DNA of 36,366 nucleotides, from positions 1-36,366 of IMG/VR virus record IMGVR_UViG_3300009183_000029; one strand, written 5' to 3'. Below are positions 6,722 to 33,104 of the stretch, one piece after another. The stretch is from a virus. The notes under the pieces were generated by a model. It was given only the letters and a program-made list of their open reading frames with translations, was not told the DNA's origin and did not search any database. Position numbers and translations under genes: made by a program. How positions within the stretch are numbered: the stretch's first letter is position 1; each line of letters begins with the position of its first letter.

Positions 6722-7966
6722 TTACTTACCAATCCAGCCAGTATTACCTGTACCAGATTCTTTGACATAAAAAGTTGTATTAGCACCACCATTAGTTCGA
6801 CTATATAAACAACCCACGGCGCCAACCACCACTCCTTCTGGACTACCTGTACCAGAAGTCCAGCGTGTCGATACAGTACCCGTAGACACAAAAGAAGTGG
6901 CTGCTATAGCATTTGCGGATACTGTAAAAAGAAAATTACCGGGAAGATTTTCTTGGTAATAGGGATTACCACCAACATTTGAAACAGTTACCGGAGCATA
7001 TGTTAGCGTGTCATATCCAGCAAGATCAACACATTGAATTATAGAAGTGTATTGTTGTGATCCTAAAACAATAGACGAACCAGTTGGTTTAATAAATTGA
7101 CAAAGTTGAAAAGTTATTTTATATGCCGTGCCAACAGTAGCCACATAGACACAATTTGTCTTCATAGCAGTTTGACCAATCCATCTGCAATTAATAAATA
7201 AGCAGTCTACTGGAACAGTATTTAATCCAGATGTGGTAGATTTAATAATCACTTCGTATGTAACGCCACCAATAGTCGTTGGTTCAAAAGTACATCCGTC
7301 AAATGTCATTCCTGATCCACCATCAAGAATTAATAACGATGGAGCAAAGATAAGTCCGTTATATAGATGATTGCATGTAAATTTGTTTTGAGAACCTTTG
7401 AAGCTAATTAAACAAGCCTGAGACGCCTCATACATAAGACTATTAGAAACAAAAACATCGTAACAATCAAATAAAAATAACCCATACTGCCCGCCCACTA
7501 GATTCAATCTGTTAAATGTACTATAGGTCGCTTGTAAAGCGTAAATATTATATAAAGTATTATTTCCAGAAGTAACATTGTCAATTAAGCAATTTGAAAC
7601 AGCTCCTTGATTAGCCGAAACAAGATTGATACCAATGGCAGCTTTTGAATTCCCCTCAACGTTTAAATCTTTAATTTGCACGTTTGACCAATACCCACTT
7701 GGATAGTTAATACAAGTCATTCCAACGGTGTTAGCCGATAAAACTGTAGCATTGCATCCATCACCTTGTATAGTTTGATTAGACATTGGTGTAAGTTCAG
7801 AATCTAGCCGATAAGTTCCTTGTGGAATGTATATGTGTCTTCCGGTAGCTAAAGCTAAATTAATAGCCGTAGAACTATTTGCCATCCCCGTTGGGTCTGC
7901 GCCATAATCTAATACATTAATGGGTGCGCCATTAATCATTGAAAAAGAAACTTTAGTAAGAGACAT
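6722..7966 (-). CDS. Beta-helix receptor-binding protein (pectate-lyase-like)
   Basis: The protein is 414 aa. After a short N-terminus, NVLDYGADPTG (about residues 18-28) opens a right-handed beta-helix of the pectate lyase 3 type. Asn/Gly-rich turns follow through residue 330 or so (GDGCNATVLS, NCLIDNVTSGNN, FDGCTFEPT). The C-terminus (FYVKESGTGNTGWIGK) is a tail common to many phage fibre proteins. It lacks the head-binding domain seen at 8806-10848, so it may attach through another protein or form a second spike. Polysaccharide binding or cleavage is inferred; no catalytic pair was assigned. The coding sequence is AT-richer than its neighbours, suggesting transfer. Confidence 0.75.
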   Translation of the reverse strand: MSLTKVSFSMINGAPINVLDYGADPTGMANSSTAINLALATGRHIYIPQGTYRLDSELTPMSNQTIQGDGCNATVLSANTVGMTCINYPSGYWSNVQIKDLNVEGNSKAAIGINLVSANQGAVSNCLIDNVTSGNNTLYNIYALQATYSTFNRLNLVGGQYGLFLFDCYDVFVSNSLMYEASQACLISFKGSQNKFTCNHLYNGLIFAPSLLILDGGSGMTFDGCTFEPTTIGGVTYEVIIKSTTSGLNTVPVDCLFINCRWIGQTAMKTNCVYVATVGTAYKITFQLCQFIKPTGSSIVLGSQQYTSIIQCVDLAGYDTLTYAPVTVSNVGGNPYYQENLPGNFLFTVSANAIAATSFVSTGTVSTRWTSGTGSPEGVVVGAVGCLYSRTNGGANTTFYVKESGTGNTGWIGK

Positions 7967-7975
7967 TTTTAATCC

Positions 7976-8806
7976 TTAAACACTATATGTCATATTAAAA
8001 GCATAAGAATATGAATTTAACCACACAATACTTCCACCAATTGTTGATGCAATGTAACCATTAGTTCCACCAGCAGCACCAAAGAACATATACATAACAC
8101 CTGTTGCGGCTTGCTCTCTACAAGTACCACTAGGCCCTAAAGAACCAGCAGCAAGCGTAAAAGGTAAGCCGTTAATTACCATGCGGCCACCGGCAGTTCC
8201 AACAGTAGTTAATGTCACAGACCCCTGAAGAAATACTTCTTTGCCAATTCTGGTGTATCTTCCACTAGATGTGTATGCGGTAAGCGACCCTGAATCACCA
8301 CTAGCAACAGGTGCCCAAGTCCCCTCCTCATACCAGTTCAGCAGTTGCGAAGTCATTCCTGCTGCTGGGGTGTTGGCGGTGAAGTTGATGCCTTTAGCCG
8401 CTGTGCTTGGAATGATGTTACCCACAGCAACCGTTACATCACCAGCAGAAGCAATCCTCATTCGTTCAGCATTGTTGATGCTAAATACAATTGGATACGC
8501 GCCAGTGTAATAAAAATTTATTGCATACGGTACAGATAAACCACCAGCTGAACTATCAATACCAAAATAAAATGTACCGCCAGTGTTTGAATATGTTGAT
8601 CTAGCGCTTACTGTACCCTGATTACTTATCACATAACCTGGAGAACCAAATGATGCAGTATAACTACGAGCAGATACATCTTTACCTGTAGTTAGATTAT
8701 CTACACTTACTTGTTTGGTAACTCCACTTTGAACAATCGGCAAAGTTTCCGTACCCGCCAAAGGCGTGGTAGCAGAGGTTAATGCTGATATTTTAGTATT
8801 CGACAT
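7976..8806 (-). CDS. Tail fibre-like protein with C-terminal beta-sandwich
   Basis: The protein is 276 aa. The N-terminus MSNTKISALTSATTPLAGTE followed by LPIVQSGVTKQVSVDNL is a recurrent start of phage fibre proteins. The middle is beta-rich with an INNAERMRIASAGDVTVAVG segment. The last 110 residues (about 165-276, GRYTRIGKEVFLQGSV onward) resemble in layout the C-terminal domain of the tailspike just upstream, a probable receptor-binding jelly roll. The start codon overlaps the tailspike stop (TAATG), so the two are made together. The receptor is unknown. Confidence 0.7.
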   Translation of the reverse strand: MSNTKISALTSATTPLAGTETLPIVQSGVTKQVSVDNLTTGKDVSARSYTASFGSPGYVISNQGTVSARSTYSNTGGTFYFGIDSSAGGLSVPYAINFYYTGAYPIVFSINNAERMRIASAGDVTVAVGNIIPSTAAKGINFTANTPAAGMTSQLLNWYEEGTWAPVASGDSGSLTAYTSSGRYTRIGKEVFLQGSVTLTTVGTAGGRMVINGLPFTLAAGSLGPSGTCREQAATGVMYMFFGAAGGTNGYIASTIGGSIVWLNSYSYAFNMTYSV

Positions 8807-10848
8807 TAGTTAACAGCAAGGTAGGTTGCAGAAATATAAAACTCTGAATTGGTTTGAACTTGTGGTGAAAGATTTGTTGCAGTACCCGCAGTATAGTATT
8901 CAAGATAAATTTTATTATCGCTAGAAATAATACGACCCTGTACTGCTGTAGCTGCACCAGAAGCAAGAAAAGCAGCTCGAACAGAAACAGAAGCCCTAGA
9001 ACTAGAATTGCTATCTGTTGAATATGGAAGATTGCCAATTACGCAAGTGCCGACTGGGGAACTAACTCCTGAAACAATTAGAAGACCAGTTACAGTTACA
9101 AGCCTACCCACCTTAACCCAACCCAAAGTATTAAATGAGGAATTTAAAGTTACAGTGCCACTTGTTCCGCAAGTTATAGTAGCAGTAATAATACCCTCAT
9201 CATAAAACTTCAATGGAACTGAACCGCCACCAAGGTATGAACCATAAGGTTGCTTCCAAGCAACTTGACCTTGAACAATTGTTGTGTTGGTTCCAGCATC
9301 AGTAACAATGACGCCAACGTCATGGGCAATGCCAATAATTTGCGTTCTGACAGCACCAGACTGGACAGTGATGCCAGCTATGTCACCACCGATAACACGA
9401 CAATCAGTTGCACCAGTTCTAAACACTGCATAGAAAGATGATGGTGTTGGAGAACCAGTACCAGTAAAACAATCAGTCAATGTAATTAAAGTACCAGAAA
9501 TATCAAAATCAATTGATGTATTTACCTCTGTGTACAAACCATTAATGTTGTCGCCAACTGCTCCACCAGAAGCAAACACACCTACAACATCGCCCTCAAC
9601 AGTGCCGCCAATAAATTTATTTCGGTTTGTGTTGCCAAGGTAAATGCCATGTCCCGTTGAAGTAAGAATTCCTTCAACTATAGGTGTAAACCAAGTGTTA
9701 TCAGCAGTATCTTCACCGGCAGAACGTCGTTCACAAGAAATACCCGTTGTAGGCGTAAGTACACTAGAAACACGTTCTGAATTAGAAACTGTAATCCAAA
9801 AATTGTTACATACTGCAAATTGTGTTCGGTGACCAATAACACAATTCCAAACTTTAACGGAAGCAGAACCATGATGCGCTGCCCTCCAATATAAAGCCGT
9901 TGTTGTAGATGCGTTACCATTAATCCAAATGGGGTTATCTGATGTACCAAAATGAACATCAAAAATATATGAACTAGAAGCACCACCATCAATAGACACG
10001 CAATTACCAGCATTGGTAAAATTAAGAATAACTTTTCCATCAGCGTACACACGCATTCCAGCCGTTGAGATAACCCAATTTGTATCTAATGTATATGAAC
10101 CTGCTGGAATTAAAATACCCAAACCATTTGCAGCGGCGTAGGTAGTAGCTGTGGCAAATGCCGTATAGTTTGCAGATGCTGTCGCAGAAGGATCAGCCCC
10201 AAAATCCAACACACTCACACTCTCACGCAGCTTAGTCTGCACTGTGGTGGCTACGGCTCCTGTGCCTGCTGGTGTGTAGGTTACCAGGGAGGCATCGGTC
10301 ACACCAGTTGATAATGTCTGGGCAGTGGTAAACTTGACCAGTGCGCCCACATGGAGGCCAGAGGTAAATGTGACTACGGTGGAACTGGTTTCCACATAGC
10401 TGTATGTTGCCCCGTCAATTTGGTTTACACCGTCAACAAAGACACTGAGGTTGTTTGTACCGGGCTGGTACTGCATCGTAGTCAGCGTAAACACGGTCTG
10501 ACTGGCTGTGGCTGTCTGCACCTCAGTCTCGGTCAAGAAGTTGACAAAGTTACTATTGATACCCACGATATTGTCGTAAGTGCCAATCAGCACATCGGTG
10601 GAAGTCTTCAGAACAAACTTGTACTGCAATCCGTCAGTCAGCCAAATTTCACCACCGGGAACACGACCACCCGAATCAAGAATAATAGGGTTGGAGTGGG
10701 CTGTTACCCCAGAACCACTCGTGTAAGTAGCCTGTGGGGTTGTTGTACCAGCCACATAGCTGTACATCTTGCCACCCGAGAGAGGGTTGCCATTGTTGTC
10801 GAAGAATTGACCAGCGACACCGCCGACAGGGGAAAGAAGAACAGCCAT
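8806..10848 (-). CDS. Tailspike protein with P22-like head-binding domain and beta-helix
   Basis: The protein is 680 aa, against 666 for P22 gp9. Residues 1-100 (AGQFFDNNGNPLSGGKMYSY, ILDSGGRVPGGEIWL, YKFVLKTS) match the head-binding fold of the P22 tailspike type. A linker with a VFVDGVNQIDG motif follows. From SVLDFGADPSATA (about 212-224) a pectate-lyase-3 beta-helix runs to about residue 540, and a C-terminal beta-sandwich (about 560-680, GWVKVGRLVTVTGLL) likely binds receptor or aids trimer formation. It should attach to the portal vertex and recognise, perhaps cleave, surface polysaccharide. Active-site residues were not assigned. Confidence 0.85.
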   Translation of the reverse strand: MAVLLSPVGGVAGQFFDNNGNPLSGGKMYSYVAGTTTPQATYTSGSGVTAHSNPIILDSGGRVPGGEIWLTDGLQYKFVLKTSTDVLIGTYDNIVGINSNFVNFLTETEVQTATASQTVFTLTTMQYQPGTNNLSVFVDGVNQIDGATYSYVETSSTVVTFTSGLHVGALVKFTTAQTLSTGVTDASLVTYTPAGTGAVATTVQTKLRESVSVLDFGADPSATASANYTAFATATTYAAANGLGILIPAGSYTLDTNWVISTAGMRVYADGKVILNFTNAGNCVSIDGGASSSYIFDVHFGTSDNPIWINGNASTTTALYWRAAHHGSASVKVWNCVIGHRTQFAVCNNFWITVSNSERVSSVLTPTTGISCERRSAGEDTADNTWFTPIVEGILTSTGHGIYLGNTNRNKFIGGTVEGDVVGVFASGGAVGDNINGLYTEVNTSIDFDISGTLITLTDCFTGTGSPTPSSFYAVFRTGATDCRVIGGDIAGITVQSGAVRTQIIGIAHDVGVIVTDAGTNTTIVQGQVAWKQPYGSYLGGGSVPLKFYDEGIITATITCGTSGTVTLNSSFNTLGWVKVGRLVTVTGLLIVSGVSSPVGTCVIGNLPYSTDSNSSSRASVSVRAAFLASGAATAVQGRIISSDNKIYLEYYTAGTATNLSPQVQTNSEFYISATYLAVN

Positions 10849-11883: not shown

Positions 11884-12483
11884 TTAGGATAAATGATAAT
11901 GATTTCGTTTTATACGATTTTCAGCTTTTGGAAGAACTTGCAAATTTGTTGGTACGTGTAAACCTGACACAAGTTTGCCGCGCAATGGGATTATATGATC
12001 CACTTCCCAAATAAACCCAAAAATACAAGTTCGTAATTTAGCCAAACTGTATGCCTCTTTCATGATCCAACGGTCATCTGAAGTCAACCATTTTGGTACT
12101 CGTTTGGCTCGTCTGGCAACACTTGCAACTGCTCGTGCAGTGTATGCAGCGGGATTCTTTTTAATATACCGGAGTGTTTTGGCTCTAACTTTTTCAGGAT
12201 TTGCTTTTACCCATGCTTTGGCGTCTTTACGCACTTTATCTTTATTGGCTTCTTGCCAACGCTTGACGCGAACATTGTGAACATCACGGTTACAGTCAAT
12301 CCATTTTTTCATGGACTCCGAATGTTTCTCAGGATTTGCAATACGCCATGCAATTGATTGGGCAATAGTACATTGAATACATTTGGCCCCTGTAGTGTAC
12401 CGATCAGAAAAATGGCCGTATTTACACGGTTTACCCGTGTTGTATATTTTTAATCCTAGCGATTTGGCTTCTGCGCGTTTCAT
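11884..12483 (-). CDS. HNH endonuclease, possible mobile (homing-type) gene
   Basis: The protein is 199 aa. An N-terminal zinc site is visible as CKYGH (C20, H24) and CIQC (C35, C38). The middle is basic and helical, with repeated KAWVKANPEKVRAKT-type segments. The HNH core is WEVDHIIPLRG, then GLHVPTNLQVLPKAENRIKRN at about residues 158-195, with the metal-binding DH pair and the N and N/H positions in place. Such freestanding HNH enzymes are common between phage structural genes and often spread by homing. Its start overlaps the previous stop (ATGA), so an insertion, if it was one, is neatly coupled. Confidence 0.88.
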   Translation of the reverse strand: MKRAEAKSLGLKIYNTGKPCKYGHFSDRYTTGAKCIQCTIAQSIAWRIANPEKHSESMKKWIDCNRDVHNVRVKRWQEANKDKVRKDAKAWVKANPEKVRAKTLRYIKKNPAAYTARAVASVARRAKRVPKWLTSDDRWIMKEAYSLAKLRTCIFGFIWEVDHIIPLRGKLVSGLHVPTNLQVLPKAENRIKRNHYHLS

Positions 12484-12842
12484 GCAAGGAATTTAAGTTT
12501 ATACAATGTCGATAAATAAAGTTCAACAATGCCATCAATCAGGTTCTGCAATGGGGTATCCGTTTTCGGGGCTACCTCATAGCGACACGCTTCAATTTCC
12601 TCAAGTTGACCCTGAAGAAACTCAACGACATTGGTGGTCTTTTTGGCAGACATCAAAGTGATCGGGCCAATCAACCCATTACGCCCTTGGTACGCTTCAG
12701 CAAACCCATCAGCCAGTTCCACGATCTCATCATAAAAGGCATTCAGGGCAACGTGCTTGGCGTAACTGCGGGTATTGAGATGAACGGAATGGGTGACATC
12801 CCGTGCCAAGAACAACATCCCTACGAAATCAGCGCATTTCAT
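12480..12842 (-). CDS. Ferritin-like/DUF5856-type helical protein
   Basis: The protein is 120 aa and almost entirely helical. A His-rich helix near residues 18-50 (VHLNTRSYAKHVALNAFYDE) is followed by ELADGFAEAYQGRNG. The spacing of H, H, E/D and E residues recalls the four-helix Dps/ferritin-like arrangement of the DUF5856 family found in phage head operons. It overlaps the portal stop (12839-12842) and the HNH start. Whether it binds metal or enters the virion is unknown; the family call is from memory. Confidence 0.55.
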   Translation of the reverse strand: MKCADFVGMLFLARDVTHSVHLNTRSYAKHVALNAFYDEIVELADGFAEAYQGRNGLIGPITLMSAKKTTNVVEFLQGQLEEIEACRYEVAPKTDTPLQNLIDGIVELYLSTLYKLKFLA

Positions 12843-15043
12843 TGTGGCATCTCCTGTGGTTGCATCTGTTCAGGTTGACCTTGTGGTGGCATACCTTGTG
12901 GCATTTCACCCATGTCTTCCTGTGGTGATTCACGTCCGGGCATTTCATTGACCAGATCACCCGATGTAATCATCGAATGTACTGTGCCCATAACAATGTC
13001 CTGAATCTGCTCAGGAGACATAGAGGCTTGGACAGCAGTCAAACGCTTGGTTTCAGCATCAAATGCCTTGACCTGAGAGTCAAATTCCTTGATCTCAATA
13101 TCTCGCATCTCCATTGACTTGCTGACATTCTGAAGCATGGTATGCATTTGTTCCATCTCTTTACCCATTGCTTCCATCTGCTGATTGGCAGCTTGGAGAG
13201 CTGGATCATCTTGGTCAGCCATGAGTTTGGGGTCAATGGTCTTGGCAAAACGTGCAGCCATCTCTTGAGCACCGGGCCAGTCCATGTTCTTGATAAACAA
13301 GTCACCAGCGACTGCCCAGAGTTGAGGATTACCCTGCAATAACTGGCTCATGGCTTCCAGAGACTCTTGGCGCTTGGTCATGTAACCGGGGCCAGTAGTG
13401 ACGCAGACATCGTACTTGCCAACACCGAGGTTATAGATTTTCTCAATCACGATACCGTCTTGATTGACAATCTTGTTGACTGGTTCCGCTTGGTCTGGGT
13501 TGGTCTTCACCATTGTTGATGTACCGTCTTCACCAATGATCCGAGCGACACGTTCTGTATCGTAAATCTTAGGGATCAGGTCAACACACTGACGAGTGAT
13601 GTAGCGCACAGCACGGGCCAGATTGTCAACGAAGTGGTATGTGCCTGTGTCGCCCTGCTTCTCACGGGCAAGAATGGCACGACCTGAGCGTTCATTGCTT
13701 GTGGCTCCAAGGCTTGAGTCGTACTGACCCGTGGTGCTCTTGATGTCATCAGAGGCTCCAGCCTTGGCCTGAAGCAGTCCAGAAGACGCCATAGGGGGCT
13801 GCGCACGCTGTGGCAAGGGCAGAGTAGCACCAGACCCATCGGTAACGTCTGGGTTGACTTCCAGATAAGGCCAGTTGGTCGTATTGGCTGTCTTCCACTG
13901 ATTCTCGTAGCCTTCAAACTGACCACCGTAGCCAATAAACGGGGCTTTAGGTGCCAGTGCCAGCATTTCAGCTTCTTGGCTTACCCAGTAGTTGTACATC
14001 CGTTGGGCATCTTTGGCGTTACGAACCAAGCCTGAAACGAACAGTTTCCCGTCCACCTCGAACTCGTTTCCAACCACACGCACCACCGGAATCCACTTAC
14101 CGTCCCAATCGCGTTCCTCAAGCATCTCGTAGCCATTGGTTTTGCACCATTTGACCTTTTTCACGTTTACATCACGGGTGCGCTTGGCTTTTCCGTAGAT
14201 TTGCTTGAGTTGTTTGTCTTCGGGAGAGTCTGCCACGGCTGTAATGTTGCCCGTGTACAGGTTCAGCTTCTGGGTGGTGTGCTCAAAGTAGAAATACTCA
14301 GCAATCCGCACTGTATCCTCGTTCACCCACTGTGCCAGCGACTGGTCGCCAACGCCAAGCGAGTTCAGTGACGAAATAGGCACTGCATCGGGGAACATAC
14401 GGGAGTAATCAGCCTTCAACACGTCTTCAGTGATGAAACACCAAGCAGCATCAGAGCCGCACGGGTCTTGGATCATCGGGTCCATGTAAACGCTGAAAGA
14501 ATTGCGAATCCGACCAATCTTGATGTCCTGGTCAAAGGAATCATCGTTGCAATACTCGGTCAGGAGACGAATGTATCCCTCTCCGTATGCCACTTGGTTC
14601 TCGCAAGCAGTATCATAAGCCACATCAGCATCGGAGATGTACTCAATATGACGAACCATGCCATCAAAAATCTCAGCAACTGCAACATCAGCTTTGTCAT
14701 CGGCAGGGATTACCTTCCCACTGGGCCGGTTCTGACGCTGGTCGTTGGTAACTTGTCGAACGTGCTGCGGCAGCTTGTTGATAGTGAGACAAGGGCGTGC
14801 ATTGATCGTTTGACCCTGCACAGCACCACGGGTAGCCAAGACATCAGCAGGCCACTGCCAATGGTTATCAGGAGAGCCTGCAAAGAATCGCAGGTCATCC
14901 AACTCATCTTCACGCGACTCGGACAGCGCGGAGATTGCCATCGTCAATCGTGACCGCATGGTGGTCAGAATATCGGCCTTATCACCCGATTTCACGCTAC
15001 CAGCAGCTACAGCCGCCACATCGTACATTGAAGAATTACTCAT
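12839..15043 (-). CDS. Portal protein, P22 gp1-like
   Basis: The protein is 734 aa (P22 portal: 725). ATG 15043 is preferred over an upstream TTG at 15055 because GGAA lies about seven bases upstream and the start overlaps the GroES-like stop (ATGAGTAA). It shows the early RFFAGSPDNHWQWP segment, RPCLTINKLPQHVRQVTNDQ, and YGEGYIRLLTEY, which I recognise from P22-type portals. It has a wing/crown region and a long helical Gln/Met-rich C-terminal barrel (about 610-734). The dodecameric ring forms the packaging vertex, binds TerL during packaging and later the gp4-like ring. Confidence 0.93.
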   Translation of the reverse strand: MSNSSMYDVAAVAAGSVKSGDKADILTTMRSRLTMAISALSESREDELDDLRFFAGSPDNHWQWPADVLATRGAVQGQTINARPCLTINKLPQHVRQVTNDQRQNRPSGKVIPADDKADVAVAEIFDGMVRHIEYISDADVAYDTACENQVAYGEGYIRLLTEYCNDDSFDQDIKIGRIRNSFSVYMDPMIQDPCGSDAAWCFITEDVLKADYSRMFPDAVPISSLNSLGVGDQSLAQWVNEDTVRIAEYFYFEHTTQKLNLYTGNITAVADSPEDKQLKQIYGKAKRTRDVNVKKVKWCKTNGYEMLEERDWDGKWIPVVRVVGNEFEVDGKLFVSGLVRNAKDAQRMYNYWVSQEAEMLALAPKAPFIGYGGQFEGYENQWKTANTTNWPYLEVNPDVTDGSGATLPLPQRAQPPMASSGLLQAKAGASDDIKSTTGQYDSSLGATSNERSGRAILAREKQGDTGTYHFVDNLARAVRYITRQCVDLIPKIYDTERVARIIGEDGTSTMVKTNPDQAEPVNKIVNQDGIVIEKIYNLGVGKYDVCVTTGPGYMTKRQESLEAMSQLLQGNPQLWAVAGDLFIKNMDWPGAQEMAARFAKTIDPKLMADQDDPALQAANQQMEAMGKEMEQMHTMLQNVSKSMEMRDIEIKEFDSQVKAFDAETKRLTAVQASMSPEQIQDIVMGTVHSMITSGDLVNEMPGRESPQEDMGEMPQGMPPQGQPEQMQPQEMPQ

Positions 15044-15281
15044 TGAAGATTCCAATCACGTCTTTTTCACGCATCATTAGGTAGTCTTCACCCTCATGAG
15101 TGACCTTCTGACCCGAGTGCTCACCGAATAATACATTGTCACCGACAATAACGTCAGTGGCCTTCTTACCAGCAGCCATGATGATGCCTGAGAACATTTT
15201 ACTCTGAGGCAACAGGATTAGTCCTTGTTTTTCTACATTCTGCTTAATAAGGATGCAATCACCCAGTGGAACAAGGTTCAT
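15036..15281 (-). CDS. Phage-encoded GroES-like co-chaperonin (Cpn10)
   Basis: The protein is 81 aa, against about 97 for E. coli GroES. It starts LVPLGDCILIKQ (beta strand of the Cpn10 barrel) and has a shortened mobile loop about residues 17-29 with LIL in place of the IVL tripeptide that docks on GroEL. It continues GIIMAAGKK, VIVGDNVLFGEHSGQKV and EGEDYLMMREKDVIGI, which follow the GroES core closely. It likely caps the host GroEL to fold a phage protein; the coat protein is the best candidate, since P22 coat is a known GroEL/ES client. ATGA and ATGAGTAA overlaps tie it to its neighbours. Confidence 0.88.
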   Translation of the reverse strand: MNLVPLGDCILIKQNVEKQGLILLPQSKMFSGIIMAAGKKATDVIVGDNVLFGEHSGQKVTHEGEDYLMMREKDVIGIFNE

Positions 15282-15421
15282 TTTTTCTTAGATGTTGGTT
15301 TGGCGGCTTCGCGCTTGACTGAATAGGCAATTGCCACGGCCTGCTTGACAGGCTTGCCGGACTTCACTTCAGTGGCAACATTTTTACGAAAAGCAGCAGG
15401 GCTGGCAGATTTCTTGAGCAT
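15278..15421 (-). CDS. Small basic protein between TerL and GroES-like genes
   Basis: ATG 15421 overlaps the TerL stop (TAATG), giving 47 aa; a longer frame starting at 15529 would lie inside TerL and is not favoured. The sequence is Lys/Ala-rich, with SASPAAFRKNVATEVKSGKP and QAVAIAYSVKR, ending KPTSKKK. Short proteins with this SxxAFxxNVxxExxxGKPxKQAxAIAYSVKR shape recur in phage head operons. The function is unknown; DNA or RNA contact is suggested by charge only. Confidence 0.7.
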   Translation of the reverse strand: MLKKSASPAAFRKNVATEVKSGKPVKQAVAIAYSVKREAAKPTSKKK

Positions 15422-16947
15422 TATGACCCCATCCATGAAGTTGTAGCGCCGCCGGACTGCGCATTTACACGGCGTGTAGTTGAAGAATTGTACTCCCGAT
15501 GAGCCACCGGGAACGCAAATGTAACGCAAAGAGCATCAGCAGCATCGGGCGAGGCCAGCCCACGAGCCTTCATCTCCTTTTTACTCTCCAGCAAAATAGA
15601 CCCGCTAGAGTTCGTTTTCCGCATAGGGCCAGTCAGATCAGCCTTCAGTTGTCGGTCAGTCGGTATGCTGGCAGTCTTGAGCCAGTCCTTCATCGCACCC
15701 CACATCTCAGCTCGTTTGTTCTGATACATCACAGGACTCTTGGCCTTCCATCCGAAGTTCACCCCACGCACCTTGTAACGCTGTTCAGTTAGCCTGTCAA
15801 GTATCCCATAGCCCAGACCACCCTCATCAATCACGGTCAGCGTAGGCTTGTACTCCTCTATGGCATCAATGACGTGACCCACCACGCTCATGGTGTCCTC
15901 ACCCTTGAACCGTTTGATCGCCACGATGTCACGCCCCTGACGCACCAGTATCACCGTGCTGTCCATGCCCCCACGGGCCGGGTCAACACCGATAACCACA
16001 GGAGCAGTCAAGTCCTTGTACTTCGGACGCTTAAACGCATCCTCAACGGTGACAGGCGAGATGAATTGGTCTTCACCAGCACTTGGAAACTCACCGTACA
16101 CCTCAACCCGCGCCTGCATTGAGTCTTCACCATACTCAGCAATGATTTGGTCGTACACCGACTTATCCGTATCTTCCACCGTCCGAGCGTCAACAATCTT
16201 GGAATTCCAAAACTCACGCTTGGCATGGAAACATTCAAAGAAGTAACCCTCATTACGCCGTGGATTGCTAAAGGCAAACCAGTAACGGTTGGGCGTATTC
16301 TCCGTAAAAAATCCAGCCCCCACTTGCCAGATTGGGTCAGGAATACCCGATGACTCATCAAAAATAAGCATCATTCCGTCTTGATTGTGGACACCAGCAT
16401 AAGAATCTGGATTCTCAGCCGACCACAATTTGCCTTCAGCCGCCCAGTACCGAGTACCTTTTTTCAGGTCACGCTCAACCGCCTCAGTCAGCCATTGCGC
16501 TGGCATCAGCTTGGTCGCACTAACTTCCCACCAATGCGAATTAATTAGCATGGCTGTCCATTTAGTTAACTCAGCCCATGTCACTGACCGCAACTGGTTC
16601 TCACTGTTGGCAGACACCACCACAGAGCCACCTATACGGGTCGTGAGCATCCATAAAACCAACCATGATACCAATGCACTCTTTCCGATCCCCCGCCCAC
16701 TGGAGACCGCCAAACGCACCGTATCGTAATCAATCAAACCCTTTTGGCTCTTAATGTGATTCGAAATATCCCGCAACACTTCACGCTGCCATTTTCTTGG
16801 CCCTTTAAATTTTTCAAGTGGCGTATTCTTTTTGCCCCAAGGAAAAGCAAACAAAACAAAAGCCTCTGGATCGTCAGCTATGGAGGGACTCCACAACTCA
16901 ACCATGAGTTTTTGTTCTTCTTCGGAGGTGTAGATGGGTAATTGCAT
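15421..16947 (-). CDS. Terminase large subunit
   Basis: The protein is 508 aa. The Walker A-like site is SSGRGIGKS (82-90) and Walker B is MMLIFDES (191-198, D196/E197). The nuclease domain begins VIGVDPARGG (D321), continues VIDEGGLGYG (D373) and ends with SPDAADAL near residue 480, giving the three acidic residues of the RNase H-like fold. It pumps DNA into the procapsid through the portal and cuts the concatemer. Its start overlaps the stop of the ART-like gene (TAATG), so the two proteins are made together. TerS is upstream beyond that gene and a structured spacer. Confidence 0.95.
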   Translation of the reverse strand: MQLPIYTSEEEQKLMVELWSPSIADDPEAFVLFAFPWGKKNTPLEKFKGPRKWQREVLRDISNHIKSQKGLIDYDTVRLAVSSGRGIGKSALVSWLVLWMLTTRIGGSVVVSANSENQLRSVTWAELTKWTAMLINSHWWEVSATKLMPAQWLTEAVERDLKKGTRYWAAEGKLWSAENPDSYAGVHNQDGMMLIFDESSGIPDPIWQVGAGFFTENTPNRYWFAFSNPRRNEGYFFECFHAKREFWNSKIVDARTVEDTDKSVYDQIIAEYGEDSMQARVEVYGEFPSAGEDQFISPVTVEDAFKRPKYKDLTAPVVIGVDPARGGMDSTVILVRQGRDIVAIKRFKGEDTMSVVGHVIDAIEEYKPTLTVIDEGGLGYGILDRLTEQRYKVRGVNFGWKAKSPVMYQNKRAEMWGAMKDWLKTASIPTDRQLKADLTGPMRKTNSSGSILLESKKEMKARGLASPDAADALCVTFAFPVAHREYNSSTTRRVNAQSGGATTSWMGS

Positions 16948-18371
16948 TAACGGCGTCTCGCAAATTTCAACATTTGATTTCTCATATCTTCATCAGACAA
17001 AGCGGTCAATGGTAATGCACCAGCCAAGATGTCAGGCGAGTTTCTTTGGAATGGATCAAAAGCGGCATAACGGGAACGAAGATTAGATGGATTAGTAATA
17101 ACACTTTCCAATCCTTCCATATCTCGACCCGCATAACCCGCCTCAGTCAACGCTTGAGTAGTGCGTTGTTTCCATTCTGGCACGCTGAAATTTGGATTTT
17201 GCGCCAGCATTTCTTGACGTACACCCTCTGAAATGTTCTGTGCTACATCATCACTTGCCAACTGCCCTCGACTCATCAAGGGCAAAACACGCGCATTGTC
17301 ACCAGCATATTTTTCAGCATACCTAGAACTAGGACTGACATAAACACCAGCCCCAAGTTTTCCTCGTGGTGACGGTTGGAACGCACCAAAATCCACATCA
17401 GTGGCGTGATACATCGGTGCATTGGGGTTAAACCCCATAGCCCCCGCCCTCTCCATAGGCGTATTACCAGCCGCCAGTCCCAAACCACCCTGCTCTACAG
17501 GCAGGGCTGCATTGCGTTGGGCGGTATCTAGGGCGGCTTGTCTTGGATAGATGAAAGGCTCTGCCTTGTTAAACGAACGCTGCATTTGCGGAGACACCAT
17601 ATTTACTGACGAATTTTCATCCATCAAATTAAACACATCCTCCAGTTTTGCATTGGGCTGATTGGGTGGCCTACGACCCAAACGATACGCTGTTTTTGCC
17701 GCCGCCTTAGATGAAACTTGACCTTGCATCTGAGGAAAGTCTTGTAATACTTGAGATTGCAAACTTTCCCCAATGCCTTGACCTCTAAAGGATTCCGGCA
17801 CTTCTAAACTCATGACAGAAGCACCAGTTTTAGGCCTCACCAATACATCAATGGAGCCACCACTTGTTGGATCGGTATAACGCACTCGCTCCGCACCAGC
17901 ACCAAAAATATCAGAAGCATCACGTTTCAGTACCTCAAACTTAGGCAACGTCTTAGAACCTTGCTCCATCATTCCCGGCATCATCCCCTGCTTTGCCATG
18001 TACTGTTCTATCTTTGGGGCTATGGCTTTACCGCCAGACATTAAGGCTTGTCTTGCTATTCTTGACTGTGCCAAGGCTTGCATAATGGGAGCCATTGCTG
18101 CGGCTGTCCCCAACGCATAGGCTGGTTCAGCCACTTGCTTGATACCCGCAAGATCAGGGTGCATCACACTAAAACCCATCTCATCTGGGGCTGTACCTAG
18201 TAACCCCATAGCAGCGGCATACGTCCTTGGGTCGGGCAGCGTATTGACATCATTTGATCTGCCAGCTTGAAGCGCCCTTGTTCTTGCAACTTGACGCTGC
18301 AACATGGGGTTTCCAAAGAATGCACCGTTAAGTGAATTCAGGTCTTGGGGGGCGAGTTTGTTTGTAGCCAT
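16947..18371 (-). CDS. Polyvalent-type protein: GNAT-like plus ADP-ribosyltransferase-like domains
   Basis: The protein is 474 aa. Residues 1-140 are Ala/Met-rich and helical, with no recognised fold. Residues about 172-232 look like a GNAT acetyltransferase core, with acetyl-CoA loop FRGQGIG (195-201) and a following KTAYRLG. Residues about 318-442 fit the ART-PolyVal kind of ADP-ribosyltransferase: YHAT (321-324), GKLGAGVYVSPS (337-348, Y344), a GYAG turn, E422 in LESVITNP, and AAFDP. H322, Y344 and E422 are the candidate catalytic set. Such domains occur in proteins of mobile elements thought to enter the host with DNA. A gene between TerS and TerL is unusual. The ribosome site is weak, but TAATG couples it to TerL. 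Activity and target are unknown. Confidence 0.7.
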   Translation of the reverse strand: MATNKLAPQDLNSLNGAFFGNPMLQRQVARTRALQAGRSNDVNTLPDPRTYAAAMGLLGTAPDEMGFSVMHPDLAGIKQVAEPAYALGTAAAMAPIMQALAQSRIARQALMSGGKAIAPKIEQYMAKQGMMPGMMEQGSKTLPKFEVLKRDASDIFGAGAERVRYTDPTSGGSIDVLVRPKTGASVMSLEVPESFRGQGIGESLQSQVLQDFPQMQGQVSSKAAAKTAYRLGRRPPNQPNAKLEDVFNLMDENSSVNMVSPQMQRSFNKAEPFIYPRQAALDTAQRNAALPVEQGGLGLAAGNTPMERAGAMGFNPNAPMYHATDVDFGAFQPSPRGKLGAGVYVSPSSRYAEKYAGDNARVLPLMSRGQLASDDVAQNISEGVRQEMLAQNPNFSVPEWKQRTTQALTEAGYAGRDMEGLESVITNPSNLRSRYAAFDPFQRNSPDILAGALPLTALSDEDMRNQMLKFARRR

Positions 18372-18479
18372 GTTTCATTATCGGTGATTAAGCGAAAACG
18401 TTTTTTAAAAAAATATCTTCAAAAAAATTATCTTTAAAAAAATTTAATATAAATTTGTTCGCGGGAGCACCGTAACCAA

Positions 18480-18497
18480 GGCCCTGTCGGTAGGGCC
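18480..18497. repeat. GGCCCT hairpin beside a C8 tract
   Basis: GGCCCT (18480-18485), a six-base loop GTCGGT and AGGGCC (18492-18497) form a perfect 6-bp stem. It is followed at once by CCA and eight Cs (18501-18508) and then GCGG. On the minus strand this is a G8 run leading into a GC stem. It is not followed by a T run in either direction, so it is not a terminator. It could mark a terminase recognition or cut region. Confidence 0.6.
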
Positions 18498-18543
18498 CCA
18501 CCCCCCCCGCGGCTGGAATTTGGAGGGATGGACGATGGCTGGC

Positions 18544-18590
18544 GCTATCAAGTTAGGAGTGGATAACTTGCTGACTATTGTTTTGATAGC
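18544..18590. repeat. Two overlapping, mutually exclusive inverted repeats
   Basis: The outer pair is GCTATCAA (18544-18551) with TTGATAGC (18583-18590). The inner pair is CAAGTTA (18549-18555) with TAACTTG (18564-18570). They share CAA (18549-18551), so in RNA only one full stem can form at a time; as DNA they could be protein-binding dyads. They overlap the predicted start of the leftward transcript. A TerS-binding site, operator or leader switch are all possible. Confidence 0.6.
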
Positions 18591-18605
18591 AACAAATGGC
18601 GTCAA
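18577..18605 (-). promoter_or_regulatory. Candidate sigma70-like promoter toward TerL
   Basis: On the minus strand TTGACG (18605-18600), a 17-base spacer and AACAAT (18582-18577) resemble -35 and -10 boxes (5/6 and 4/6 matches). Transcription would start near 18570 and read through the spacer into the ART-like, TerL and portal genes, with a leader of about 200 bases. The -10 box is weak, so this is tentative. Confidence 0.4.
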
Positions 18606-18661
18606 ACCTCAAAACCCTTATTAACATAATGAACACTGTATAAAGTAAACGTACGTTTTTG

Positions 18662-19129
18662 CTACTTTGCCACCACATCTGTCACATCCACCCGATCCAG
18701 CAATACCCGTGCTTGAGCCTGTTCCAACGCATCGATGACGCTGATACGTTTCTCCAGCACAGTGACATCCAGCTTGTCGCCGTATGTCTTTGGCTTGAGC
18801 TTAGATGTCACCCATTTACGCGCGTCAACCTGTAGCCGTTTCTGTTGCGCCCAAGCGCCAGCAAGCGCAGGGTTTAAATGGCCCGGAAAGGGCTCATCAG
18901 CCAATTCAATAATCTCCTCTGCCAATCGGTCTGCACGCTGCTCTACAGCCCTCTGATAGGCCTCCTCAAGCCTTGCATCAGCCTTAATCATTCTCCATGC
19001 CTGAACATAGCTTGGCATCCCCTGATTCTCCAACGCACGACTCAGGCTAGAGCCAGCAGCAATGTTGTCCAAGATGACAGGCCATACCTCTGCTTGGTTG
19101 TATTCAGGTGGTCTTCCCATTTTCTTCAT
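18662..19129 (-). CDS. Terminase small subunit, Sf6-type
   Basis: The protein is 155 aa (Sf6 gp1: about 140). GRPPEYNQAEVWPVILDNIA opens an N-terminal helix-turn-helix (about residues 5-55, with SLSRALENQGMPSYVQAWRM). A helical oligomerisation segment follows (EAYQRAVEQRADRLAEEIIE), then AQQKRLQVDARKWVTSKLKPKTYGDK, a signature I recognise from this family. It binds the packaging site and hands DNA to TerL. AAAGGACAG precedes ATG 19129. Unusually, an ART-like gene and a 290-bp spacer separate it from TerL. Confidence 0.9.
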   Translation of the reverse strand: MKKMGRPPEYNQAEVWPVILDNIAAGSSLSRALENQGMPSYVQAWRMIKADARLEEAYQRAVEQRADRLAEEIIELADEPFPGHLNPALAGAWAQQKRLQVDARKWVTSKLKPKTYGDKLDVTVLEKRISVIDALEQAQARVLLDRVDVTDVVAK

Positions 19130-31271: not shown

Positions 31272-33104
31272 TTACGGGGCCAGTGCATTAGTTGATTTAC
31301 CTTTTGGAGTAAGGGCATTAAAGTTTAATGATTCTGCCACTTGTTTTTCCATAGCTTTAGTTTTGGCTACGTCTGCCAATTTACCAGCCAAGGGAATTTG
31401 CAATTTACTTAATTGATCTAAGCTACGAATTAAAGCCGATGAAGTGTTGGAATAATTGACCGCACCGGGTTGTTTCACCAACGCATCTTGGATGGAGTCA
31501 CGCAAATCAATTAATTGATCTCGACCAGTTTTGCCAAACAAATAAGTCAATTTGTCTTCGCGATCCAGCGCGTTAATGGCTGTGTTCAACTTTGGAAAAG
31601 ACAATTGACCGCTTGCATTCTTGGTAATTTGATCTTTCAGATGCTGAATTGTCTGGCCTTGAATTTCAGCCCATGCTTGTTGACCTTGTGGGCCTGCACG
31701 CTTTAAAACCTTGCCCACAGTTTGCATTTCTTCCATGCTACCGTCCAACACAATGTGGTCAAACACATCTGCCAAAGCAACTTTACGATCAGCATAGCCA
31801 GCTTTAGTACCAAGCAATGAAGCCACACGGCTGCTGTCTTCAAAATCTTTTGCTAATTGTTTTCTAGCCATCCGAGCATCACGGTATAGGTCGCCGCCAG
31901 CACCTTCAGTGGTCTGGTCAATTAATGACTTCATGGCCTTGGAATGAACAGCGTTAGGTGTACCCGGCTGCGTGTTTTTACCAATATCCTGATAAATGTC
32001 TTCCAGCGCACGAACAGACATTGTTCCCTTTTTCTCAGGATCATTTAAAGCAATTTGCTCAGCTACAGAATCCAAGATTGGCGCAAGTTTTGCCCTGACA
32101 GTAGGTGATTGTTTACTAATGTATTCAGTGATTCCCGTATACGGCACTTCTTGCAAGGTTTCACCAGCATTGTCAGCCAAAGCATATTTAGACTTCATTG
32201 CTTGGTATTTTTTGTCGTACTCATCCACCAATGCTTTGTCAACAATGCTGCCCACCTTCTTGTAGGCCGAAGGGTCAGCATATTCAGCACCCGTTTCTTG
32301 AGACATCTGCTCAAACTTGTTTAAGATGGCTGATTTTTGAGTTTCTTTGGCTTGGAGCAATGGTGCGCCAGCGCCAGCAGGGTAGTTTTTGGCGGTTTCT
32401 GCTTCAAATTGCTGAGTAGCCAAATCTTTAGTTTGTTCCCCTTTGGTCAGAGGAATTCCCAAGCGTTGTGCGCGTTCTTGACGTAACAAAGCCGCCTGAG
32501 TTTCAGCTGCACCCATGCCAACCATGTCTGGTTCAGATTTAGTCATGGCTTTCGCCAAGACATTTTGAACTGGCGCAACAATACGTTGAGCCACTGGTCG
32601 CAATTGATTGATTGCTGCTGGTGCTAAAGCACTAATTGCCGCACCGGGTCCGCTTAAAACTGGCGGCAACGATTCCATCATTTTGCCAGCACCTTCAACT
32701 ATCTCAGGCCCAGTTTGAGTGCGAGGTTGATAAAATTGTTGTGCAGCCCAATTAGCCGCAGATTCTCCAGCGGCTTTGCCTTGTGGTGTACCTTGACCGC
32801 CTACAGCCTCACCATACATACGAGCCAAAGGTGTAGCTACCATACGACCCAAACCACCAGCAATAATGGCTGGAGTTTCCACTACACCCATTAAACGATC
32901 TTGCAATGTCATAGGTGCTGGTTGTGCAGCAATTACTCCTTCTGCACCCGGTATTTGCGCTTGAGCACCTAACCCAATTTTGGCGTAAAACTCTGGTTTG
33001 GGAATATCAGAATAAAATTTCTGGTGCAAAGCATCAGCCAATTTCACATCAGGAATATCCGCATACTGTGGATATTGAGTACGGATTTCAGCCATTGTTG
33101 CCAT
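31272..33104 (-). CDS. Ejection (DNA transfer) protein, P22 gp16-like position
   Basis: The protein is 610 aa. The N-terminal block IRTQYPQYADIPDVKLADAL, then HQKFYSDIPKPEFYAKIG (about 7-44) is a signature of podovirus ejection proteins. Ala/Gly-rich segments (about 60-170) could insert in membrane, and the rest is long, charged and helical. No lytic transglycosylase motif was seen. Such proteins leave the capsid first and help form a channel across the envelope. It is the third of three adjacent genes in gp7-gp20-gp16 order, joined to the previous one by TAATG. Confidence 0.82.
   Translation of the reverse strand: MATMAEIRTQYPQYADIPDVKLADALHQKFYSDIPKPEFYAKIGLGAQAQIPGAEGVIAAQPAPMTLQDRLMGVVETPAIIAGGLGRMVATPLARMYGEAVGGQGTPQGKAAGESAANWAAQQFYQPRTQTGPEIVEGAGKMMESLPPVLSGPGAAISALAPAAINQLRPVAQRIVAPVQNVLAKAMTKSEPDMVGMGAAETQAALLRQERAQRLGIPLTKGEQTKDLATQQFEAETAKNYPAGAGAPLLQAKETQKSAILNKFEQMSQETGAEYADPSAYKKVGSIVDKALVDEYDKKYQAMKSKYALADNAGETLQEVPYTGITEYISKQSPTVRAKLAPILDSVAEQIALNDPEKKGTMSVRALEDIYQDIGKNTQPGTPNAVHSKAMKSLIDQTTEGAGGDLYRDARMARKQLAKDFEDSSRVASLLGTKAGYADRKVALADVFDHIVLDGSMEEMQTVGKVLKRAGPQGQQAWAEIQGQTIQHLKDQITKNASGQLSFPKLNTAINALDREDKLTYLFGKTGRDQLIDLRDSIQDALVKQPGAVNYSNTSSALIRSLDQLSKLQIPLAGKLADVAKTKAMEKQVAESLNFNALTPKGKSTNALAP

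Follow-up and report, generated by a model that had tools for sequence, protein, structure and literature searches.

A gene between the terminase genes of a P22-like phage as a probable virion-loaded effector in an optional cargo slot

What is the role of a protein with enzyme-like domains that is encoded between the two terminase genes of a phage? This question is raised by the IMG/VR virus record IMGVR_UViG_3300009183_000029, which was analyzed over its whole length of 36,366 bases (hereafter, the window) and carries genes for a P22-like portal protein, a major head protein and DNA ejection. In this window, a gene for a protein of 474 amino acids (aa), termed gene X, is located between the genes for the terminase small subunit (TerS, upstream) and the terminase large subunit (TerL, downstream), all on the minus strand, and the X/TerL junction reads ...GTTAATGCAA..., i.e., TAATG. 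A sequence-only reading of the same DNA had described this open reading frame (ORF), its place in the packaging operon and its TAATG coupling, all of which proved exact, and had proposed that X joins a GNAT domain to an ADP-ribosyltransferase (ART) domain like those of polyvalent proteins and might be packaged. The present analysis indicates that X is probably a virion-loaded, ejected effector occupying an optional cargo slot. This proposal builds on the slot position, the modular make-up, the occupied and empty states of the slot, the ART-like fold with its H-Y-E residues and a terminal peptide shared with ejection proteins; the most distinctive properties of the locus, namely leaders that stay constant, cargo that is exchanged, slots that can be empty and a tag at the terminus, had been missed by the earlier reading.

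The modular make-up of X-type proteins became apparent from scans of viral contigs, in which duplicates (L001–L005 and L007) were removed and identical proteins were counted once. A scan with whole X identified nine loci, eight of which match within the first ~145 residues only and the ninth to residue 202; five of the eight N-terminal-only loci encode one identical protein. A profile of this leader (the N-module) identified 201 related viral-contig stretches, and 215 with a broader alignment, of which the best 80 loci were taken in each case. The N-module was found once per record in all 10 records searched and gave a single match in 84,980 prokaryote species genomes, on a contig of an Armatimonadetes metagenome-assembled genome. 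In 50,697 isolated-phage records, no significant match to the N-module (best E 7) and no match to the GNAT module were identified; the ART module matches three of these records. The N-module proteins comprise 115 distinct sequences, or 84 at 90% identity, with the module near the start in 50 and further inside in 34. Among the 50 short members, Pfam (E ≤ 1e-3) recognizes ART-PolyVal in nine, PBECR5 nuclease in four, LPD23 in two and DUF3990 in one; GNAT-like segments are also present, and several cargo types belong to no known family. ParB-like segments in L015 and L019 are our own reading, and Pfam gave no ParB match. Of the 34 long members, 28 carry an SLT transglycosylase domain at the same threshold. 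Domains of this kind typify internal virion proteins that are ejected; in L008, L076, L088 and other long members the SLT domain is N-terminal, and the gene is often located between those for TerL and the portal protein.

The cargo changes while the leader is kept: the window and L065 have identities of 73% in TerL and 61% in the N-module, but beyond the module no significant similarity remains in X. Both enzyme-like modules also occur behind other leaders, as found in scans with the ART module (at least 490 relatives, best 80 kept) and the GNAT module (20 relatives), where sequences of the type 'RATPxxNPxxGLLAD' and 'PTPRNxxxGLxxD...SPERTQQMQG' precede them. Among 189 distinct X-type proteins (L011–L013 omitted from this count and from the neighbor count below), the combinations of N-module (N), GNAT-like module (G) and ART module (A) are N in 96, A in 59, NA in 17, G in 10, NG in four, NGA in two and GA in one, so that most combinations exist. 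Groups of X-type proteins each have their own C-terminal tail over different cargo (for example, ...DEEKRKEIxSLLE, ...YxDPFxDTIxDTTR and ...GGxxERxxxDNRRYL), and these tails may be group-specific tags. In L083, X is present as two ORFs of 196 and 452 aa with a four-base overlap (7959–8549 and 8546–9904), the second of which is 95% identical to the C-terminal part of X of L065; this arrangement represents either a frameshift or a natural split.

The slot itself was surveyed with the TerL of the window, not X, as the seed, using the best 80 of 472 relatives (TerL 76–86% identical) and scoring as occupied any slot with an ORF of at least 190 aa between a window-type TerS and TerL; the count covers loci in which a window-type TerS was detected and leaves out 57 of 83. 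This TerS is found upstream in 24 of the 80 TerL loci, where the slot is occupied in 17 and empty in seven, and in the isolate DSL-LC05 (TerL 75% identical) the slot is likewise empty, with TerS overlapping TerL. The occupants include the N-module joined to an unknown 540-aa domain, an ART (L263), a GNAT carrier (L241) and unknown folds. Because the slot is occupied or empty among relatives and the cargo differs behind a kept leader, X is optional and replaceable; X is one filling of a cargo slot. The 540-aa domain stands behind two leaders in the same slot (L262 and L261 versus L024). The tagged occupant of L292 (3928–5001) carries LPD23 (45.7 bits) and the sequence HELQH, which we take to be a zincin-like motif resembling metallopeptidase polyvalent proteins. 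In the wider set, a packaging, portal, ejection or head gene lies within three same-strand genes of 161 of the 189 X-type proteins, in the arrangements X-(small)-TerL (63), TerL-X-portal (33), ejection-X (23), X-portal (15), TerS-X-TerL (11), TerL-X (nine), near gp4, gp10 or coat (four) and other (three).

A short terminal peptide connects X with the ejection cluster. In the window, the pattern N-x-L-x-[PQ]-x(2-5)-N-x-[LM], searched in ORFs of at least 60 aa, matches two ORFs only: X at residue 4 (NKLAPQDLNSL) and the third protein of the ejection cluster (ej610) at its extreme C-terminus (NALTPKGKSTNALAP). The pattern used for slot occupants, N.L[ATI][PQ].{2,9}N.[LM] at no more than 30 residues from an end or a plausible internal start, is found at the start or end of occupants in 14 of 18 loci (the 17 occupied slots and the window), which themselves helped to define it. 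Homologues of ej610 were detected in six of 16 related records, and the C-terminal end of all seven proteins, including that of the window, carries the pattern or a close variant; the homologue in G016 ends in NQLATPSRSKNSMAP, outside the strict pattern, and those in G003 and G004 have 10 extra residues. In seven genomes (342 ORFs), 15 matches were counted, whereas 200 shuffles gave a mean of 0.27 (maximum 2). The second ejection protein of G011 accounts for one of the 15, and the other 14 belong to X-type or ej610 proteins.

An independent set was formed from DSL-LC05 and seven of the 10 records without an ej610 homologue (G015, G023 and G024 lie outside it). Its 387 ORFs contain nine matches against a shuffle mean of 0.24 (maximum 2), and all nine are in ejection-cluster genes, which were recognized from their position next to homologues of the 256-aa and 426-aa proteins in the window's ejection cluster. 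Five of the nine lie 2–9 residues from the C-terminal end of the third ejection protein (DSL-LC05, G014, G017, G019 and G022); in DSL-LC05 the tag is at residue 630 of a DNA transfer protein of 651 aa. The same peptide thus ends the large third ejection proteins of these five records, for which no similarity to ej610 was detected. Among the other ORFs of the TerL loci the pattern occurs in five of 3,077, namely the slot occupants of L261, L279 and L292, a 162-aa gene in L315 and ej610 of the window itself. The L315 gene (2575–3063), located between those for TerL and the portal protein, starts with NSLAPKSINAL and is otherwise of low complexity; its product is perhaps a bare tagged protein. 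In an unsupervised test, in which the 24–26 terminal residues of X were compared with all other termini of the same genome, an ejection protein ranked first in four of 12 comparisons within the TerL group of the window (six genomes: G003 head and tail, G011 tail and G016 head; the window head ranked third) and in one of 16 comparisons in other groups (eight genomes), weakly, for the G002 head. A likeness of tails in the TerL_b group (ejection ...GLLSIEDLDREQRNLLGIE and cargo ...GLLADEEQRKKLYELMPSLLGQ) was rejected, as it was not outstanding among all termini. A second recurrent C-terminal peptide, RIDLTGMANK/RIDLTGMANPD, ends ejection-region proteins in two phage groups (Table 1). No peptide shared by cargo and ejection proteins of podophages was found in literature titles and abstract openings, a search outside which preprints and most subscription journals fall.

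Because the tag is shared with ejection proteins, virion loading of X is likelier than the earlier reading could know. The evidence for the motif comes from sequence and the motif is short, and it could instead mark a site for another shared process, such as proteolytic maturation or terminase binding, or be a functionless element spread by recombination; we consider this rather unlikely as a replacement for a loading tag. The peptide is N-terminal in most cargo but C-terminal in ejection proteins, and it also occurs on large ejection proteins that lack recognized similarity to ej610, a distribution that argues for a reused docking peptide.

The position of X in the late operon and its TAATG coupling would fit equally well a late intracellular enzyme that is never packaged and that acts within the producing cell, either modifying host proteins or excluding superinfecting phages. 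Such enzymes exist, since the T4 proteins ModA and ModB are ARTs made during infection and not carried in (PMC9503650, PMC5512222), and no virion proteomics supporting packaging was found. However, an intracellular enzyme leaves unexplained the terminal peptide shared specifically with ejection proteins, the proteins that join the N-module to an SLT transglycosylase domain and the 23 cases adjoining ejection genes, and we regard this alternative as improbable.

With regard to the ART domain, the motifs YHAT, GAGVYVSPS and AAFDP, as well as the FRGQGIG motif assigned to the GNAT domain, are all found in X, as are H322, Y344 and E422, in agreement with the sequence-only reading. Sequence profiles are suggestive for both domains, because X of the window scores below both Pfam cut-offs: 22.1 bits for ART-PolyVal (PF18760; gathering cut-off 31.2; E 2.7e-4) and 17.8 bits for Acetyltransf_CG (cut-off 30; E 3.8e-3). 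The expectation of a profile match is therefore borne out only through ART relatives that exceed the 31.2-bit cut-off, namely the L043 protein (39.2 bits) and the ctTUS972 protein P0008 (65.5 bits). An AF2 model of full-length X (45 alignment rows) has a mean pLDDT of 77.9 and a pTM of 0.45, with separately confident domains: the helices of the N-module, followed by alpha/beta domains at ~145–230 and ~275–445. Modeled by itself, the ART domain reaches a mean pLDDT of 89 and a pTM of 0.79. Its best match in the PDB is 9k3a_B, from the pre-ejectosome of cyanophage A4 (Foldseek E 5.3e-3, probability 1.00; VIA Z 8.4 over 121 residues, rmsd 3.5 Å), and an ART-like domain is therefore found in a phage-particle assembly. 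The second VIA row is the anti-CRISPR protein 6kyf, which we take to be the ART AcrIF11, and nearly all remaining rows are ARTs (PARPs, MbcT, Tpt1 and diphtheria toxin; Z 4.8–5.4, ~73–116 residues). Since Foldseek gave no match at E ≤ 0.001 for the models of X, and PDB sequence searches gave nothing significant, the assignment rests on the uniformity of the VIA list together with the conserved H, Y and E. The modeled domain thus has an ART fold; the Z scores are middling, and it is the uniform list that makes the argument. A cagL-like adhesin in the ART region was rejected, because its sole phmmer matches in the PDB, with E 0.1 or worse, are attributable to chance.

In an alignment of 29 ART relatives (A10; the short L195 and L197 were omitted from alignment A7 onward and L191 from A8), the conservation of the active-site residues is above chance: H is present in 29 of 29, Y in 21 (with F or W in five more) and E in 20. 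The ARTs of polyvalent proteins (Tox-ART-HYD2) have an H-Y-D active site with D in strand 5 (Iyer et al., 2017, PMC5512222), and the third residue in the window is E. The relationship to polyvalent-protein ARTs put forward in the sequence-only reading hence stands, as judged from the L043 and P0008 matches and the modeled fold, but the active-site pattern of that clade is absent from X, and E is lost in part of the family.

A loss of E would fit an accessory ejectosome or internal head protein whose ART and GNAT folds are structural remnants and whose domain swapping is neutral recombination, as would the presence of the closest solved ART-like domain in a pre-ejectosome. This explanation appears more doubtful still: the window's closest ART relatives retain H, Y and E, relatives with a predicted PBECR5 nuclease in place of the entire domain are hard to square with a structural role, and seven of 24 loci as well as DSL-LC05 do without the slot protein.

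Ahead of the ART domain, a putative GNAT-like fold was identified where it had been predicted: VIA places known GNATs on residues 141–250 of X (Z 5.6–7.5), GNAT entries dominate the rows, and the segment, which contains the acetyl-CoA loop motif FRGQGIG, has 20 relatives in viral loci at 70–83% identity; the fold scores are middling, and the Pfam match is sub-threshold. Over the same region, the full model of X matches the viral polymerase domain 5muz with a likewise middling Z of 6.9. That the domain calls are due to chance and neither ART nor GNAT is present, as the sub-threshold Pfam scores, the lack of significant PDB sequence matches and the lack of Foldseek matches at E ≤ 0.001 might suggest, is scarcely credible against relatives above the cut-off, a model of high confidence and the predominance of ARTs among the VIA rows.

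Taken as a virion-loaded, ejected effector, X would be made late together with TerS and TerL. Docking at the procapsid site of the large ejection protein may be mediated by the tag at its N-terminus (N-x-L-x-P-x(n)-N-x-L), possibly assisted by the N-module, and X would then leave the virion together with the DNA. In the host, the ART domain would be expected to transfer ADP-ribose from NAD to a host macromolecule, and the GNAT-like domain may acetylate the same or another target or serve as a recognition domain. Virion loading and catalysis are predicted here from sequence.

Several observations weigh against this proposal. E422 is absent from nine of the 29 aligned ARTs and, by a motif-anchored count, from 34 of 64 distinct ARTs (present in 30), and part of the ART family may thus be inactive. 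The GNAT-like region is small, with the middling structural matches given above. A packaging, portal, ejection or head neighbor is lacking for 28 of the 189 X-type proteins, a number that includes contig-end loci and neighbors beyond the coverage of the seeds. Because the window and the slot occupants had already been inspected when the tag pattern was drawn up, independent evidence comes from the eight-record set only; within it, four of the nine matches are internal (the second ejection proteins of G012 and G013 contain two each), and G020 has no match. In eight genomes outside the TerL group of the window, no shared tag was demonstrable. Neither virion proteomics nor an assay was found for any of these phages, and in the excerpts of the paper on the ART-bearing isolate OANV2 (L012), no virion proteomics appears, the terms 'mass spectrometry', 'SDS-PAGE' and 'LC-MS' each having 0 occurrences.

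A broader proposal, advanced tentatively and with somewhat less than even confidence, is that in P22-like phages the tag could be a general virion-loading code, C-terminal in large ejection proteins and located at one end or the other of optional cargo, and that together with the TerS-TerL slot it could form a natural plug-in system for protein delivery. The slot would let phages swap whole injected effectors (ART, GNAT, LPD23/zincin-like and unknown folds) with the particle left untouched. So far as literature searches show, the N-module family, the occupied and empty slot within one clade and the shared peptide are new. Injected phage effectors are known from few cases, and cargo recognition is detailed mainly for T4; a peptide present on both an ejection protein and swappable cargo opens the loading question to a direct reporter test. 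The tag and slot also offer a route to injected effectors of unknown fold, and the tag could become a compact loading label for proteins in P22-like particles.

The features on which the analysis draws are listed in Table 1. PHROGs gave no match for X (best E 0.24), and PADLOC gave none for the six X-type proteins submitted. As TerL directly follows X, no small immunity-like ORF lies between them, and no immunity gene was found between X and TerL in the window. The TerS-X gap of ~290 bases (18372–18661) contains A/T-rich runs and a C-run beside GC-rich blocks and is possibly a regulatory or recombination site. A 199-aa ORF at 11884–12483 presumably resembles an HNH endonuclease.

Table 1. Positions of the features discussed, given in the window unless a locus is named
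Feature	Position	Strand	Basis
Gene X: tag, N-module, GNAT-like and ART-fold protein, 474 aa	16947..18371	-	ATG start
N-terminal peptide tag NKLAPQDLNSL, aa 4-14 of X	18330..18362	-	motif match
N-module of X, aa 18-112	18036..18320	-	leader common to >200 viral stretches; AF2 helices 48-57, 74-111
GNAT-like module of X, aa 141-262	17586..17951	-	Pfam sub-threshold, VIA
ART-fold domain of X, aa 285-445, H322/Y344/E422 and RSRYAAFDP	17037..17519	-	Pfam sub-threshold, AF2, VIA
C-terminal tail of X, aa 446-474	16950..17036	-	low-confidence in AF2 model
Terminase large subunit (TerL)	15421..16947	-	PHROG 2, 6.2e-44; TAATG overlap with X
Terminase small subunit (TerS), Sf6 type	18662..19129	-	Pfam Sf6_terminase 3e-26; PHROG 1482 1.9e-30
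Portal protein, P22-like	12839..15055	-	Pfam
ej610, third protein of ejection cluster, 610 aa	31272..33104	-	
C-terminal tag NALTPKGKSTNALAP of ej610, aa 596-610	31275..31319	-	
Second protein of ejection cluster, 426 aa	33104..34384	-	
DNA ejection protein, 256 aa	34411..35181	-	PHROG 598, 1.9e-37
RIDLTGMAN-type ejection-region proteins	L344 5533-7392, L346 7156-9039, L356 1291-3327		

Among known systems, the polyvalent proteins of phages, which are proposed to be injected, resemble X in uniting disparate enzyme domains in one late-gene protein, in an ART with a GNAT neighbor, in the PBECR and LPD domains of relatives and in predicted co-injection with DNA (Iyer et al., 2017, PMC5512222). 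X itself has at least two disparate domains, with middling scores for the GNAT-like one, in a late or virion gene context. The statement of the sequence-only reading that the combination of the two domains is unusual finds no support: one phage GNAT family typically neighbors ARTs (Iyer et al., 2017, PMC5512222), and ART genes have been reported in the vicinity of terminase genes and portal genes (Iyer et al., 2022, PMC9503650), so that both virion-borne ARTs near terminase genes and the ART-GNAT neighborhood are already published. In contrast to polyvalent proteins, X-type proteins are mostly small, have a constant N-module unrecognized by Pfam and PHROGs, carry a terminal peptide shared with ejection proteins and occupy a slot that is demonstrably filled or empty.

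In MuF proteins, variable toxins are attached to a constant head domain; like X-type proteins, they have a constant N-terminus, interchangeable C-terminal domains and a place in the DNA-packaging module, mostly with a single gene in each phage (Jamet et al., 2017, PMC5576092). However, MuF genes lie just downstream of the portal gene, whereas X-type genes are found ahead of TerL, in the TerL-portal interval or by ejection genes, and X-type cargo also occurs behind other leaders. No MuF domain was identified in the 84 N-module members (50 and 34; Pfam E ≤ 0.001). Judged by Pfam, and not by profile-profile or fold comparison of the N-module alone, a MuF origin of this module has no support, although a remote link may exist. 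The cyanophage A4 pre-ejectosome (9k3a chain B, known by its PDB title) offers the closest solved fold to the ART domain of X, at Z 8.4 and within an ejection assembly, but this chain is a large ejectosome subunit and has no significant sequence match; a literature search gave no paper that names this phage. In T4, the ART Alt is packaged and ejected, and an N-terminal peptide of 10 residues from the protein IPIII suffices for head loading (PMC9026906); Alt and the capsid targeting sequence thus parallel X as a head-loaded, ejected ART and a short N-terminal loading peptide, whereas X belongs to a different ART family, and its tag is found also at the C-terminal end of ejection proteins.

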